DNA from: Dehalococcoidia bacterium
Lineage (GTDB): Bacteria > Chloroflexota > Dehalococcoidia > JAUSIH01
DNA length: 32,327 nucleotides
Reading direction: 5' to 3'
NCBI GenBank assembly: GCA_030648205.1
Contig: JAUSIH010000057.1
Location: 1-32,327 of the forward strand
Positions 8,144 to 13,433 of the stretch are shown here, one piece after another; within the stretch, counting starts at the first letter, position 1; every line of letters starts with the position of its first letter. The notes under the pieces were generated by a model that worked only from the letters and a program-made list of their open reading frames with translations, did not search any database and had not been told where the DNA came from. Both the position numbers and the translations under genes were made by a program.

Positions 8144-8863
8144 ATGATGACGCAAGGGCCAACGGACAATCGCAGGCTCGCCGGTATGGCGGTCATGGGC
8201 GTCAGCGCGGTCAACCTGGCGGCCAGCCTCGCGCTGCTGCTCCTGCTGCGGCCCGGCACGCTGGCGGGCGGCGGCGTCACCGACCGCATGACGTACATCG
8301 TGACGAACCGCTTTGTCTGGACGGCGGGCTGGCTGCTGTGGGTGCTGGCCGCGCTCTCGCTCGTGGGCCTGTTCTATGTCCTGAGCGCGCACCTGGACAG
8401 TCGCATGGCGGGGCTGCTCCGCTACGCGCGGGCGCTCGCCGTGCTGGGCGCGGCGCCGGACATCATCGCCAACCTCATCAACGCGGGTGTCCTCGCGGAC
8501 ATGCCCGCCCGCTGGCTCGCGGCGTCGCCCGCGGTGCGCCCCGTGGTGCTGGAGGAGTTCGCGGTGTGGGACCGGTTCGCGGTGCTGCTGACGGGCGGGC
8601 TGGCGAACCTGCTGTACGGCCTCGCCGGGGCGCTGCTCACGGCGGCGATGTTCCGGACGGCGCATTTCCCGCGCCTCCTGGCGTGGGGCGGCGCCGTGGT
8701 GTGGGGCATGGCGCTCGCGATGAGCGTCGCGGGCTTCGCGGTGTCGCCCGCCGCGCTGGAGCCGACCGTGGGCGCGACGATGGCGCTGTTCATTGCGTGG
8801 AGCTTCGCCGTGGGGTACGTCTTCCTGTACCGGCGCGGCGGGCCTCCCGCTACGAGACTGTAG
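8144..8863 (+). CDS. Multipass membrane protein of unknown function
   Basis: A 239-residue protein with about six or seven hydrophobic segments, for example AVNLAASLALLLLL, GWLLWVLAALSLVGLFYVL and LYGLAGALLTAAM. A soluble-looking stretch with charged residues (ARWLAASPAVRPVVLEEFAV) sits in the middle. I do not recognise a family with confidence. The design resembles small membrane proteins of the DUF4386 kind, which is only a guess. The start is one of two adjacent ATG codons at 8144/8147, right behind an extended -10 element and without a ribosome site. Its 3' end overlaps that of the convergent Nudix gene by 14 bases. Codon use is strongly GC-biased like that of its neighbours, which supports a real gene. 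Confidence 0.75.
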   Translation: MMTQGPTDNRRLAGMAVMGVSAVNLAASLALLLLLRPGTLAGGGVTDRMTYIVTNRFVWTAGWLLWVLAALSLVGLFYVLSAHLDSRMAGLLRYARALAVLGAAPDIIANLINAGVLADMPARWLAASPAVRPVVLEEFAVWDRFAVLLTGGLANLLYGLAGALLTAAMFRTAHFPRLLAWGGAVVWGMALAMSVAGFAVSPAALEPTVGATMALFIAWSFAVGYVFLYRRGGPPATRL

Positions 8864-9251
8864 GCGGCTTCCGGTCCGACAGGAGGGCCTTGAGGCGCTC
8901 TAGGGCGTCACGGTACTCCTGGTAGTAGAGCAGCCGCGTCGCCTCCCCGTAGTCGCGCCAGCAGAAGGCGGTATGCTCGTCGCTGAGCGTGACGGGCGTG
9001 TCCGGCGCGACCTCCATCGCGAAGCATCGCTCCGAGCACGTCTGGCCGTTCGCCGGGTAGTCGTAGGCGTAGTCGAGGTCGGTGACGCGGGTGAAGCGGC
9101 GGATGCCGGACTCCTCCGCGACCTCGCGCACGACGGCGTCGCGCGGCGTCTCGCCGTCGTCCACCACGCCGGTGATGGGCTGCCAGAAGCCGCCGAGCGC
9201 CTCGACGCGCTTCAGCAGCAGGAAGCGCGGTTGCGCGCCGCCGGTGTACAC
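8850..9251 (-). CDS. Nudix hydrolase, NudB-like, possibly with a broken N-terminus
   Basis: Hydrolase of nucleoside diphosphates linked to another group. The Nudix box is perfect: Gly28, then Glu34, then REVAEESGI at 42-50 (G-x5-E-x7-REUxEExGU). FWQPITGVVDDGE before it and DEHTAFCWRDYGEA after it resemble NudB, the dihydroneopterin triphosphate pyrophosphatase of folate synthesis. The only in-frame start after an upstream TAG is the GTG at 9251, which leaves the first beta strand incomplete. The codons just before it read PRVSVAAF, a natural family N-terminus, and an ATG at 9301 lies in a frame one base off. A lost base in the G6 run at 9272-9277 would explain this. Substrate assignment is tentative. 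Confidence 0.8.
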   Translation of the reverse strand: MYTGGAQPRFLLLKRVEALGGFWQPITGVVDDGETPRDAVVREVAEESGIRRFTRVTDLDYAYDYPANGQTCSERCFAMEVAPDTPVTLSDEHTAFCWRDYGEATRLLYYQEYRDALERLKALLSDRKPPTVS

Positions 9252-9340
9252 GAACGCGGCGACGGAGACGCGGGGGGAGGGCTACTGTGCTTTGGTGGCA
9301 TGACTTCTCTAATGAGGTCTGCTGGCGGAAGCAATATCTA

Positions 9341-9441
9341 CTAGTACCTAATGGCGACAAACCGCGTACCCTTCACCGAACGTGCGCCGTGGTTCACCAG
9401 ATACAAGTCTTATTACGCTGATTTACGCAACTAGGTACTAG
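9341..9441. repeat. 10-base inverted repeat at the end of the restriction gene
   Basis: CTAGTACCTA (9341-9350) and TAGGTACTAG (9432-9441) are perfect inverted copies 81 bases apart. The right arm includes the stop codon of the restriction endonuclease gene. They lie in the AT-richer gap (9252-9437) at the downstream edge of the restriction-modification island. They may mark a junction or form a long hairpin; there is no U-tract. Confidence 0.5.
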
Positions 9442-10328
9442 GTTGCGAGATCAAAGGGTAAGTCACTGATGTCGCGAAGACGCCTGCCATTGATCATGGT
9501 TATGAGCATGTCTAGTTGGTCTTGATTATCAACCTCTCTGAGGGTCTTCGTTAGTTCCGTAAGCGCGAAGTGATATACGCAATCCAAGTCACCGGTACCA
9601 AGCGCTAGAGCTGAAATCCGTGTGGGCAGGGGTTCAGCCGTCACCGCAACTATATGAGGCGAGTGCCCTTTGCGATTTCGGATCAAATTCAGAGCCTCCG
9701 TTCTTGTATTTTGAGATCTATCACTTCGTATTGTCCACTTGCAGGAGATACTAGCGTGCAGTATCGGAAAAGATTTCTCGCGATTAACAAGCCGAAGAGG
9801 CGTCAGGCGGGCCACATCGTCCTGTGCACTGACCAACTTCTGCTCTCTGTTAACTTCGGCATCAGATATAGGTGTTCTGGCGACGATAATGTCGGGCTTG
9901 ACAATATAGTCGCCTCCTAGCGCGGGAGCCAAAGCTCTGTCTTGGGCGACTAGCTTTTCCAAGTATGCCAAGTGCTCATATTGGTCAAACCTGGAGATGA
10001 CCGTTTGAGCAGTTGAATATATCCAATGTCCTGGACGTACGTGGTGCAAAAGTTTGAACGCCTCTGCTAGGAAGTCCTTAGTGGCTACCTCGAACAGACC
10101 TCCAACTGTCTGCTCGTTGATTCGCTTATGGTCAGCCACATATCCCAGACGTTTGACTATCCCCCAAGCGATATTCACACTCGATTTATTACTGCCGTCG
10201 GCAAAGTTGGGGTACTCAACATGTTTCTTGGAGTCTCGGCTTATCCGTATAATGTCTTTGCAGATACGATTGTGGTACGCTTCTCGAAGCTCGGCAATTC
10301 CCATCTTCCTTGTTTCACGTGAAGCCAT
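9438..10328 (-). CDS. NgoMIV-type type II restriction endonuclease
   Basis: A 296-residue protein that I recognise as a relative of NgoMIV, which cuts GCCGGC. Long stretches recall that enzyme: ADGSN, HVRPGHW, ALGGDYIVKPDIIVAR, HASISCKWTIRSDRSQN, GHSPHIVAVTAEPLPTRIS and ALGTGDLDCVYHFAL. The metal site of this family seems intact: Glu80, Asp146 in KPDII, Ser195 and Lys197 in SCK, and Glu211, with the same 14-residue Lys-Glu spacing as in NgoMIV. The ATG at 10328 has GGAGG 7 bases upstream, inside the end of the methyltransferase gene, with one base between stop and start, so translation is coupled. Base composition is clearly lower in GC than the flanks. GCCGGC specificity is inferred from family resemblance, not shown. 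Confidence 0.9.
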   Translation of the reverse strand: MASRETRKMGIAELREAYHNRICKDIIRISRDSKKHVEYPNFADGSNKSSVNIAWGIVKRLGYVADHKRINEQTVGGLFEVATKDFLAEAFKLLHHVRPGHWIYSTAQTVISRFDQYEHLAYLEKLVAQDRALAPALGGDYIVKPDIIVARTPISDAEVNREQKLVSAQDDVARLTPLRLVNREKSFPILHASISCKWTIRSDRSQNTRTEALNLIRNRKGHSPHIVAVTAEPLPTRISALALGTGDLDCVYHFALTELTKTLREVDNQDQLDMLITMINGRRLRDISDLPFDLAT

Positions 10329-10329
10329 C

Positions 10330-11739
10330 TTAAGCCTCCGGTTTGAAAAAACCGATGACAAACTCCTCATGCATGCGCTGTTGGATTTGGGAACCCAAGT
10401 CACGCGTGACCCCCATTGGGAGCATGCGACGGTCTCGGTCCAGGCTTCGTACTCCGACCTTTGGAACCTCAAACCCTATCGCTTTACCGATCTCGACTAG
10501 GCAAGACCCTGTCTCCGTGTTCTTGCCACGCATGACCGAAGACCCAACAACAACTACTGCTGCTCTGCCTGGCTTAAGAACGCGGTACATCTCACGCAAA
10601 GCCCGCATCATTTCAGAATAGTAGCGGTGCAAGACGCGTCCCTTTCTCCTGTCAAGACATCCTATCTGCGACACGACTTCCGCCGTTCCATTGGGCAACT
10701 TCTCCAAGTCTTTGTCTACTACGCCTTCACTACCGATATATTCCTTTCTCCTGTGACTCAGTTCATTGAGAGCATGTCCAGTCCATACAAGCGAAAACTT
10801 GTGAGCTCGCATGTAGTCGATAGCGTTGGAGGCATATGGTGGTGAAGTCACAATCAGGTCTACGGAGGCGTTGGCGACAGGTAGGCATTGGGCATTCCCA
10901 AAGGCCAACAGCGGCGTGATCTTGCCGTGGGCGGATTCTTGTAATCCCACCAGATTTTGACGTACCCGTCGTTTGAACTCTTCTAATGGGGAGCGGACGA
11001 TCTTGGTCTGGTGTTTTAGTCGCCCAGAGGCCGAATTAGGCAACTCTTGGCTTCGCAGGGTCGCGCCGGTCTTGTAAACAATTACTTTGGCCTTGTGCGG
11101 TCGAGTATGACCCAGGTCCAATGCGAAAGAGACCCCACCGGACTTGGTAACAATGATCGCGGAGAGAGCCAATTCAAAGAAGGCTTTCGCAGTCATGTCC
11201 GACATGCCTTCTATTTGCTGAACCAGCGCGAGAAGCTCTAGCTGCGTTTCTCGTGCAAACCAGTAGTCAACAAACCGTGTTGTCTTCGCATCCCAACGAT
11301 TCTCAAGCGCCCTTTCTAACTGCGCTCGATTCTCCTTAATGGTGACGGCGAGAGCTGCTTGCCGCGAAATAGATTCTCCCAAAGATATGATTTGCAGAAC
11401 ATCCGAGGGGGTGACTTTGACTTTGGAAATGAGTACAGCAAGAGGGTCAATATCGATCCCAACGGCATATCTTCCAGATAAGAAGGCTTCAAGAATGGTC
11501 GTGCCTGAACCCATCATCGGATCAAGCACGACATCTCCCGCGTTGGTTAGTGCAGCGATGAACTTGCATGGTAGCTGTGGAGGAAACTTTGCCGGAAAAG
11601 AGTGGAAGTTGTGGGATGCGTACCCGCTCCCCTGGTCATGGAAATCTAGGTCCTGATTAAGGAGCGCCACAAGTTTCCGACGCGGGTTTTGTTGAGGTGC
11701 GGTATAGACGCCCTCTTTCGTTTGGACAATGTTTGTCAT
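10330..11739 (-). CDS. Site-specific DNA amino-methyltransferase of the restriction system
   Basis: S-adenosylmethionine-dependent methyltransferase that should protect the site cut by the downstream endonuclease. Motif I is LDPMMGSGTT (residues 72-81), followed by GIDIDP. The catalytic motif is TSPPY (298-302), which points to an exocyclic amino group, most likely N4-cytosine. The order motif I, then about 200 residues including GGVSFALDLGHTRPHK, then motif IV, with the last motif near the C-terminus, is an alpha-like order. I chose the ATG at 11739, which gives 469 residues; an ATG at 11784 with AGGT upstream is also possible. It is probably the first gene of the unit. Its AT-rich composition, like that of its partner, suggests transfer. 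Confidence 0.87.
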   Translation of the reverse strand: MTNIVQTKEGVYTAPQQNPRRKLVALLNQDLDFHDQGSGYASHNFHSFPAKFPPQLPCKFIAALTNAGDVVLDPMMGSGTTILEAFLSGRYAVGIDIDPLAVLISKVKVTPSDVLQIISLGESISRQAALAVTIKENRAQLERALENRWDAKTTRFVDYWFARETQLELLALVQQIEGMSDMTAKAFFELALSAIIVTKSGGVSFALDLGHTRPHKAKVIVYKTGATLRSQELPNSASGRLKHQTKIVRSPLEEFKRRVRQNLVGLQESAHGKITPLLAFGNAQCLPVANASVDLIVTSPPYASNAIDYMRAHKFSLVWTGHALNELSHRRKEYIGSEGVVDKDLEKLPNGTAEVVSQIGCLDRRKGRVLHRYYSEMMRALREMYRVLKPGRAAVVVVGSSVMRGKNTETGSCLVEIGKAIGFEVPKVGVRSLDRDRRMLPMGVTRDLGSQIQQRMHEEFVIGFFKPEA

Positions 11740-11907
11740 ACGGGTCAAGACAAGCCTAAACTCAACTATGACGCCTGCCTGCATGCATCTTACCTGAAAA
11801 TTGCATGCGTCGTCTATCTAGCGCGTATTCTCTCTTCATCGTCCGTCTTCGGTTGGGTTGTGCGACTGGCTTGCATCCTTGTGGCTGGGCTTGGCGACGT
11901 TCGCTCC

Positions 11908-13182
11908 TTACTCCCAGTACTGCACCGTCGCGTCCGGCAGCACGGCGACGCGCCCCCCTCGCGGGTAGTCCTGCTCCAGGTCGCGCAGCACGTCGGCCCA
12001 CGTCTTGCGCCACACCACCGCGTCCAGCGGCCCGAACCAGTCGGCGCCCGCCCTCTCGCCGAAGCGGGAGAGCGCGATGAGCTTCTTCGTCCGGGGCGGC
12101 AGGCCCTTGTGCGCCCCCCACAGCCGCCCGCCCATCTCCGTTCCGAAGCTGCGGCTCAGGTAGTGGGGTATCTGGCCCTCCGGCGTGTTATAGACGAGCA
12201 CGAAGGTCCCGCCCTCCGGCCGCAGCGCCTCCGGGGCGACGCTCAGCGTGATGAGCGCCTCGTTCGCCTTGTGGTAGGCGTTGGCGATGACCACGTCGCA
12301 TGGGCCGGGCCGTGGCGTGGCGTACACCTCCATGCCCTGCGCGCAGCCCGCGCGGTGCGCCGCCACCACGTCGCCGACGTACATCCCGACAATTTCGCGG
12401 CGCAGGTTCATCACGCAGTTGACGATCATGTCCAGCCCCGCCAGACGCGCAATCTCCTCCATGTCCTCGCGCACGGGGTTGCCCTCGACAATCGCGCGTC
12501 CGACGCCCTGCTTCAGGTCGCCGACGGGTTTGCCCGCGGCGGGCTTGCCGCGTCCGCCGACGTCGTGATGGTTGGCGAAGACGGTATCCACGTAGCCGAC
12601 GCCCGGGCAGAGCACCTTGGCACCGCCGCCGAAGCCCGCGAGCGGGTGCGGCACAATGCCGCCGAGCGCTATCTTCAGGTCGCAGGACATGACCTCGGCG
12701 TTGAGGACGGCCTTCGTGCCGCGACGGGTAACGCCGACCTCGACGCAGTTCTCGTACGGGTTGTGGTTATAGACGGGGAAGCGCTCGACGACGTCCTCGC
12801 CGAGCTTCTTGACGAAGTCCCATCGCCGCATGGCCCCGTGCGTGCCGAGCGCCGCGATGAAGCGGACGGCGCTGTCCGGGACGCCCGCCGCCTTGAGCTC
12901 GTCGAGGACGTAGGGCACCATCTCGGCGGTGGGCGTGCCGCGGGCCATGTCGTCGAAGAGTATGGCGACGCGCTTGCGCCCGCGCGCCAACTCGCGCAGA
13001 GGCGGCGTGCCGATGGGGTGGTCGAAGGCGGCGCGCATCTGCGCGGGCGTGAGTTTGGGCGCGCGCTCTCCCCGCATGGCGCAGTACCGCACGTCCCAGG
13101 ACGCGGGGAACGTCAGCGTTGTCTCGGTGTCGCCGAACCAGGGCATCTCCGGGATGCGGATAACAGTCTCAGTCGCGACCAT
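11908..13182 (-). CDS. larA: LarA-family nickel-pincer racemase
   Basis: Member of the lactate racemase (LarA) family, cytoplasmic enzymes that racemise or epimerise 2-hydroxyacids with a nickel-pincer nucleotide. The 424-residue length is right. Conserved features are DDMARGTPT (77-85), His115 in ALGTHGAM, His179 and Lys189 in VPHPLAGFGGGAKVLCPG, and His205 in ANHHDV; the Lys joins the cofactor in LarA, and the spacing H179-K189-H205 equals that of LarA (174-184-200). The ATG at 13182 has GGAGGG 6 bases upstream; codons upstream of it fall in repeat DNA. The cofactor-making genes larB, larC and larE are not in the window. The substrate may not be lactate, because many paralogs have other substrates. 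Confidence 0.85.
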   Translation of the reverse strand: MVATETVIRIPEMPWFGDTETTLTFPASWDVRYCAMRGERAPKLTPAQMRAAFDHPIGTPPLRELARGRKRVAILFDDMARGTPTAEMVPYVLDELKAAGVPDSAVRFIAALGTHGAMRRWDFVKKLGEDVVERFPVYNHNPYENCVEVGVTRRGTKAVLNAEVMSCDLKIALGGIVPHPLAGFGGGAKVLCPGVGYVDTVFANHHDVGGRGKPAAGKPVGDLKQGVGRAIVEGNPVREDMEEIARLAGLDMIVNCVMNLRREIVGMYVGDVVAAHRAGCAQGMEVYATPRPGPCDVVIANAYHKANEALITLSVAPEALRPEGGTFVLVYNTPEGQIPHYLSRSFGTEMGGRLWGAHKGLPPRTKKLIALSRFGERAGADWFGPLDAVVWRKTWADVLRDLEQDYPRGGRVAVLPDATVQYWE

Positions 13183-13232
13183 TGTTTGCCCTCCGTAGTC
13201 CGATGTTAGGGGGGATACCTCATCCCATGTGT

Positions 13233-13433
13233 CCCCTTCTCCCACAGGAGAAGGGGAGAAGGAAAAAGACGAAACTGGGAGGACACCCTTCGGCTGCGCT
13301 CTCCGAAGGAGTCCGGAGTCCTTCGGACAGGGCAGGCTCTCCCAGACCCTCCAGCCGCCCTGCGGCTCTGCACCCCCGGCGTAGTCATTCCGAGCCCTTC
13401 GGCTACGCTCAGGGTAAACTCCGCGAGGAATCT
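13233..13433. repeat. Cluster of intergenic palindromic repeats
   Basis: The gap between larA and ybaB holds three palindromes: CCCCTTCTCC-CACA-GGAGAAGGGG (13233-13256), TCCGAAGGA-8 bases-TCCTTCGGA (13302-13327), and a longer imperfect one from TCATTCCGAGC to GCGAGGAATC (13385-13433). The first resembles the palindrome at 24181-24205, which supports a dispersed family. I see no coding potential here. Confidence 0.6.

Follow-up and report, generated by a model that had tools for sequence, protein, structure and literature searches.

The window, i.e. the whole stretch of 32,327 nt that was analysed, contains a compact pair of genes, M and R, that very likely is a Type II restriction-modification operon gained by horizontal transfer. 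In the manner of NgoMIV, a Type IIF tetramer that requires two sites, the endonuclease R would be expected to act as a tetramer and to cleave G^CCGGC. The methyltransferase M, encoded first in the operon, would protect GCCGGC by modifying the amino group of cytosine (N4-methylcytosine, m4C), whereas the NgoMIV system modifies carbon 5. Together they would defend the cell against phages and plasmids. Both genes are intact and tightly coupled, R has the family and the contact residues of NgoMIV, M has the family and the motif order of an amino-methyltransferase, the pair recurs in other genomes and its composition is foreign. As a restriction-modification pair it is ordinary, and its subtype is widespread but undescribed in the literature searched. 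The features discussed are:

10330..11784, minus strand: M gene, 484 aa, alpha-order SPPY amino-DNA-methyltransferase, predicted to be N4-cytosine-specific at GCCGGC
9438..10328, minus strand: R gene, 296 aa, NgoMIV-family type II restriction endonuclease
10326..10340, minus strand: M/R junction, with the M stop codon TAA at 10332-10330, the R start codon ATG at 10328-10326 and GGAGG just 5' of it within the end of M
11785..11907, minus strand: leader 5' of M that contains the palindrome GCATGC twice (about 11780-11811)
9341..9441, no strand assigned: MITE-like terminal-inverted-repeat element of the host genome, 101 bp, directly after R

Gene layout and composition of the islet

A coupled endonuclease and methyltransferase had been proposed in the first-pass annotation. 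Both genes are real and intact on the minus strand with M preceding R, and the ATG of R at 10328 lies two bases past the stop codon of M, preceded by GGAGG. TTG 10472, given as the start of R by the ORF tool, was rejected because it falls within M. An alternative start codon of M is the ATG at 11739. The pair is flanked by genes for a NUDIX hydrolase (8850-9251) and a LarA-type racemase (11908-13245). The paired GCATGC palindromes upstream of M weakly suggest a candidate operator; such a pair was found upstream of only one of 70 M genes, that of the window.

The interval originally assigned to the islet, 9252-11850, holds both genes, but its part 9252-9437 takes in the 101-bp host repeat. This element has CTAG at both ends and the first of these supplies the stop codon TAG of R. 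Full copies are present at C42:4855-4955 (100%) and C115:19031-19132 (98%), and end-only copies are found elsewhere in the genome. Short inverted-repeat elements of ~93-151 bp, mostly with CTAG ends, occur in the window and in C42, C115, C50, C46, C96 and C20 of the same genome (G000). They directly follow the stop codons of R, of an EF-P-like gene and of a quinolinate-synthase-like gene, and end-only matches were seen in three other genomes of the class. An integron attC site was considered for 9341-9441 and dismissed, since its ends do not resemble integron core sites and its copies have the appearance of a MITE family. The element has no Rfam match.

The GC content in 500-base segments is 0.50-0.53 over 9251-11750 and 0.56-0.76 in every segment clear of the islet, which bears out the initial observation of a base composition well below that of both flanks. 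The GC3 values of R (0.51) and M (0.55) compare with 0.67-0.95 for the 13 other genes of the window. In 38 of 40 loci with a related restriction-modification pair, the GC content of the pair is lower than that of its flanks; the median difference is -0.094, and one genome enters the set twice. Thus, the low GC content travels with the module. Five other 2.4-kb stretches with a GC content of at most 0.53 were detected in 320 kb sampled of the genome; two carry GmrSD-type genes, one carries a methyltransferase-caspase fusion, and Pfam gave no match for the remaining two. The pair is one of several scattered islets that are probably defence-related.

The fusion (L178, G000:C3:6244-8298, minus strand) comprises 684 aa with an N6_N4 DNA methyltransferase domain (residues 34-277) and a caspase-like Peptidase_C14 domain (319-530), and is possibly a methylation-linked suicide gene. 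None of 412 matching plasmid records covers 80% of it. The GmrSD-type nuclease genes are located at L184:11040-12302 and L170:4980-6677, one of them with an HNH domain that is weakly IscB-like.

Endonuclease and methyltransferase

R matches PF09015 (NgoMIV_restric) in a profile search with 369.5 bits (E 1.2e-110; curated cut-off 23.2 bits) and the NgoMIV structure 1fiu with E 8.6e-79. It is 52.5% identical to a gonococcal copy over residues 43-295. The active-site residues E70, D140, K187 and E201 of NgoMIV correspond to E80, D146, K197 and E211 of R. The residues R191-S-D193-R194, which read the CCGG core, correspond to R201, D203 and R204, and the outer-pair residues D34, Q63, S192 and R227 to D44, Q73, S202 and R237. 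The roles of these residues in the active site, in CCGG core recognition and in reading of the outer G:C pair are taken from portions of PMC6344858 and PMC4652773. The resemblance to NgoMIV in all key motifs, noted from the letters, is hereby borne out. NgoMIV/NgoAIV from Neisseria gonorrhoeae (G^CCGGC, Type IIF) accordingly shares with the window the R family, the contact and active-site residues and the expected target.

Gaps aside, D44, Q73, D146, K197, D203, E211 and R237 have no replacement in 100 relatives of R, whichever partner these have. Replacements were counted in one relative at R201, one at R204, four at S202 and eleven at E80, the last in a column that is sensitive to the alignment. 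Since the contact residues are nearly fixed irrespective of the partner, GCCGGC is very likely still the target throughout the family. Unprotected GCCGGC would very probably be cut by the nuclease of this pair.

The kind of methyltransferase was left unstated in the first-pass annotation. By sequence, M differs from the NgoMIV partner type. It matches PF01555 (N6_N4_Mtase, E 1.5e-20), and a profile search for PF00145 (C5-cytosine methyltransferase) gave no match in M. Motif I (DPMMGSGTT, residue 88) lies ahead of motif IV (TSPPY, T313-Y317), which is invariant in 56 of 56 relatives. In beta-class enzymes such as 2zie the motif order is opposite, and the N-terminal part of M aligns to the C-terminal part of beta profiles. 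An order of motif I, insert and motif IV is the alpha order. By this arrangement M is an alpha-order amino-methyltransferase; the order also fits the alpha-class DpnM, which has an extra DNA-binding domain (PMC5173035). Rotation of M to the beta order yielded 29.5 bits against the beta-partner profile (29.7 bits for native M). The claim was therefore restricted to the motif order, and M is not presented as an exactly permuted form of the beta partner.

An AF2 model of M based on 56 relatives (pLDDT 84.8, pTM 0.87; mostly below 50 for residues 1-28) has a Rossmann-type core whose closest resemblance is to Trm11-type enzymes (Z 19.7, rmsd 2.4, 180 aligned). In the model, Trm11-type RNA methyltransferases are the nearest solved structures by fold, a likeness that is only a shared core. 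The E. coli Dam chain appears at Foldseek rank 3, which fits the alpha order. A mostly helical segment (about residues 125-290) is modelled between the two halves of M, i.e. between motifs I and IV. It would be a candidate for the target recognition domain, which in alpha-class enzymes separates motifs I-III from motif IV.

GCCGGC contains no adenine, so an amino-methyltransferase for this site must act on cytosine and N4-methylcytosine is predicted. The product of M should be m4C at GCCGGC, visible in PacBio kinetics, and not m5C. The target GCCGGC is assigned to M from its partner R alone. Close relatives of M (~47-52% identity) exist without an NgoMIV-type R in two genomes (G021 and G088); the M family is therefore not bound to R. 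In G088, the relative (47-51% identity) adjoins a 184-aa open reading frame (L034:4467-5021, minus strand) bearing KWSVRHDR, which resembles the NgoMIV core motif KWTIRSDR. This frame has no Pfam or NCBIfam match and may possibly encode an unlisted CCGG-family nuclease.

PMC5578853 lists alpha-class amino-methyltransferases for GGNCC and CCWGG under m4C alpha. These share with M the order of motif I, insert and motif IV and the predicted m4C on a GC-rich site; they differ in the site and in the partner nuclease. For Sinorhizobium, a part of PMC11711589 lists GCCGGC as m4C with a methylation frequency of 6%. No description of an NgoMIV-type nuclease with an m4C partner was found in the literature searched; REBASE may list such pairs.

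Partners of the nuclease family

A scan of 84,980 species genomes identified 505 relatives of R, the best 80 of which were used, a choice biased toward the R of the window. In total, 116 loci with R were reduced to 103 distinct places by dropping 13 repeats of the same place. Partners were labelled by tblastn matches within 2 kb of R. In these 103 loci (including the best 80 of 505), 75 partners are of the alpha-order type, 12 of the beta-order type and 13 of the m5C type, one of which (L138) is a weak (82 bits) and divergent match; for three loci none was found. No locus has m5C and amino-methyltransferase matches together within 2 kb of one R. PF09015 is present in five of 100 genomes of the class, the host included, and all three partner types occur in this class. 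Among 400 evenly drawn genomes of the phylum, 21 (own included) contain an R, with 12 alpha-order, four beta-order and four m5C partners and one without a partner.

In alpha-order loci M is located directly upstream of R, and in 55 of 62 such loci no more than 30 nt separate the M stop codon from the first aligned base of R. The distances between R proteins and those between M proteins are correlated (Spearman 0.495 for 63 pairs; the best of 999 permutations reached 0.261). Relatives of the pair occur in many phyla. One scan of viral contigs returned no relative, and among 50,697 phage records a single one, an unannotated faecal scaffold, has a relative. R is broken or partial in five of the 21 R-bearing phylum genomes (loci L054, L058, L060-L063). 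At some of these loci (L062, L058) M is still open beside the damaged R, and in such loci the nuclease seems to decay before the methylase.

In NgoMIV/NgoAIV the partner is a C5-cytosine methyltransferase (PF00145), whereas M of the window is an alpha-order SPPY enzyme with m4C as the predicted product. Gonococcal NgoAIV (GCCGGC) is listed as 5mC in a section of PMC6789123, and NgoMIV is also given as 5mC in a review table that contains other errors (PMC12114051). Plasmid systems from Azonexus, Sulfitobacter, Rhodococcus, Achromobacter, Acidovorax, Paracoccus and Mycobacterium share the R family with the window. Seven of eight plasmid loci inspected have the same order of M followed by R; unlike in the window, the partner in these seven is annotated as DNA cytosine methyltransferase, and Vsr is present in two. 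The eighth, pNOR-2000 (L027), has an NgoMIV-type R without an adjoining methyltransferase; integron and resistance genes are found instead. Systems with a beta-order SPPY partner (e.g. L033 of Dehalococcoidia; cyanobacteria, Nitrospira and Planctomycetota) agree with the window in R family, amino-methyltransferase and gene order. Their partner, unlike M, has ~290-300 aa with SPPY ahead of motif I, and their R proteins form one clade.

This clade (99*) lies within a 64-row starred group that is otherwise alpha-partnered in the R tree (100 rows, quick method, unrooted; L025, L060 and L061 left out). The partner types fall into few blocks on the tree: five label changes are needed, or three without the rows labelled 'none', and the mean for shuffled labels is 24.7 (all labels). 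Hence, a change of partner appears to be rare and then stable.

Deamination of m5C leads to a T:G mismatch that is repaired by Vsr, according to the part of PMC7973814 concerned. With two Vsr proteins as queries, a Vsr gene was detected near R in four of 13 m5C-type loci, in none of 75 alpha-order loci and in none of 12 beta-order loci, a contrast that is no more than supportive, given the relatedness of the loci and the short length of many of them. The genome of the window has a single PF00145 m5C methyltransferase (L166, G000:C22:26759-27784, minus strand) with ~24% identity to the GCCGGC type. Next to it lie a Vsr gene and another frame, of 340 aa, and this region probably represents another restriction-modification system.

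Taken together, the NgoMIV nuclease lineage is probably a conserved core with an exchangeable antidote: one GCCGGC cutter would be combined with three protector designs (C5, alpha-order N4 and beta-order N4). Most of the sampled diversity would then rely on N4-methylcytosine. Loss or absence of Vsr would go along with the switch from m5C to m4C. The beta type would have replaced the alpha type at least once in the R tree, provided that the root lies outside that part.

Site counts and alternative explanations

The window has 18 GCCGGC sites, among them the one at 433-438 that was cited earlier as an example of its presence in host DNA; the assembly of 2.69 Mb has 1503. The count in the window is below the 35.6 expected from dinucleotide shuffles but equals the genome average. 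The observed/expected ratio of 0.49 against shorter words (rank 12 of 64 palindromes) indicates moderate under-representation, and the ratio to the reversed control CGGCCG (1.67) is within the range of 100 genomes examined, own included. As the site is only moderately rare and not depleted relative to this control, prolonged restriction pressure is not apparent, and avoidance of GCCGGC was dropped as evidence of a long-lived active system. CAGCTG is almost absent from 16 sampled stretches of the genome and the flanks of the window (six seen, 119 expected; observed/expected 0.05, the lowest of 64 palindromes), which suggests long-lived PvuII-like pressure.

It is unlikely that R and M are unmatched neighbours, with R inactive or directed at another target and M acting as a solitary or regulatory methyltransferase. 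The relatives of M without an NgoMIV-type R would fit such an arrangement, as would the damaged R genes of the phylum, some with an intact M alongside. Against it, the R of the window is intact and lacks none of the catalytic and contact residues, and the tight coupling and correlated divergence of M and R extend across many loci. A native islet that is merely AT-rich is very improbable. In its favour, no empty site was found: 34 of 100 genomes of the class, counting that of the window, have relatives of LarA (nearest other 54% identical), and since the NUDIX gene was not beside LarA in the 11 loci read, none is demonstrable. A native origin would also fit the lack of a tRNA in the window and of flanking direct repeats beyond weak matches, and on these latter grounds an integrase-type genomic island was rejected. 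Against a native origin stand the GC3 gap to the other genes of the window, the occurrence of relatives in many phyla and the AT-richness of nearly all related pairs. It is highly improbable that M methylates carbon 5 of cytosine despite its sequence family, with the chemistry of NgoMIV; the 5mC entry for gonococcal NgoAIV would speak for this, whereas the missing PF00145 match, the invariant SPPY motif IV and the absence of Vsr near all 87 amino-type loci speak against it. A horizontally acquired operon with an m4C-type protector remains the best explanation.

The pair is noteworthy for the exchange of the methylase rather than for the single copy in the window. The distribution suggests that in Type II systems a toxin-like nuclease can outlive its methylase antidote through rare replacements. 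It offers a clean natural setting in which protection of one site by m5C can be compared with that by m4C. The presence of m5C at GCCGGC does not follow from that of an NgoMIV-type nuclease, which corrects a habit of the databases. If this is true, the mark of most of these bacteria would be visible to PacBio kinetics, a method blind to m5C.
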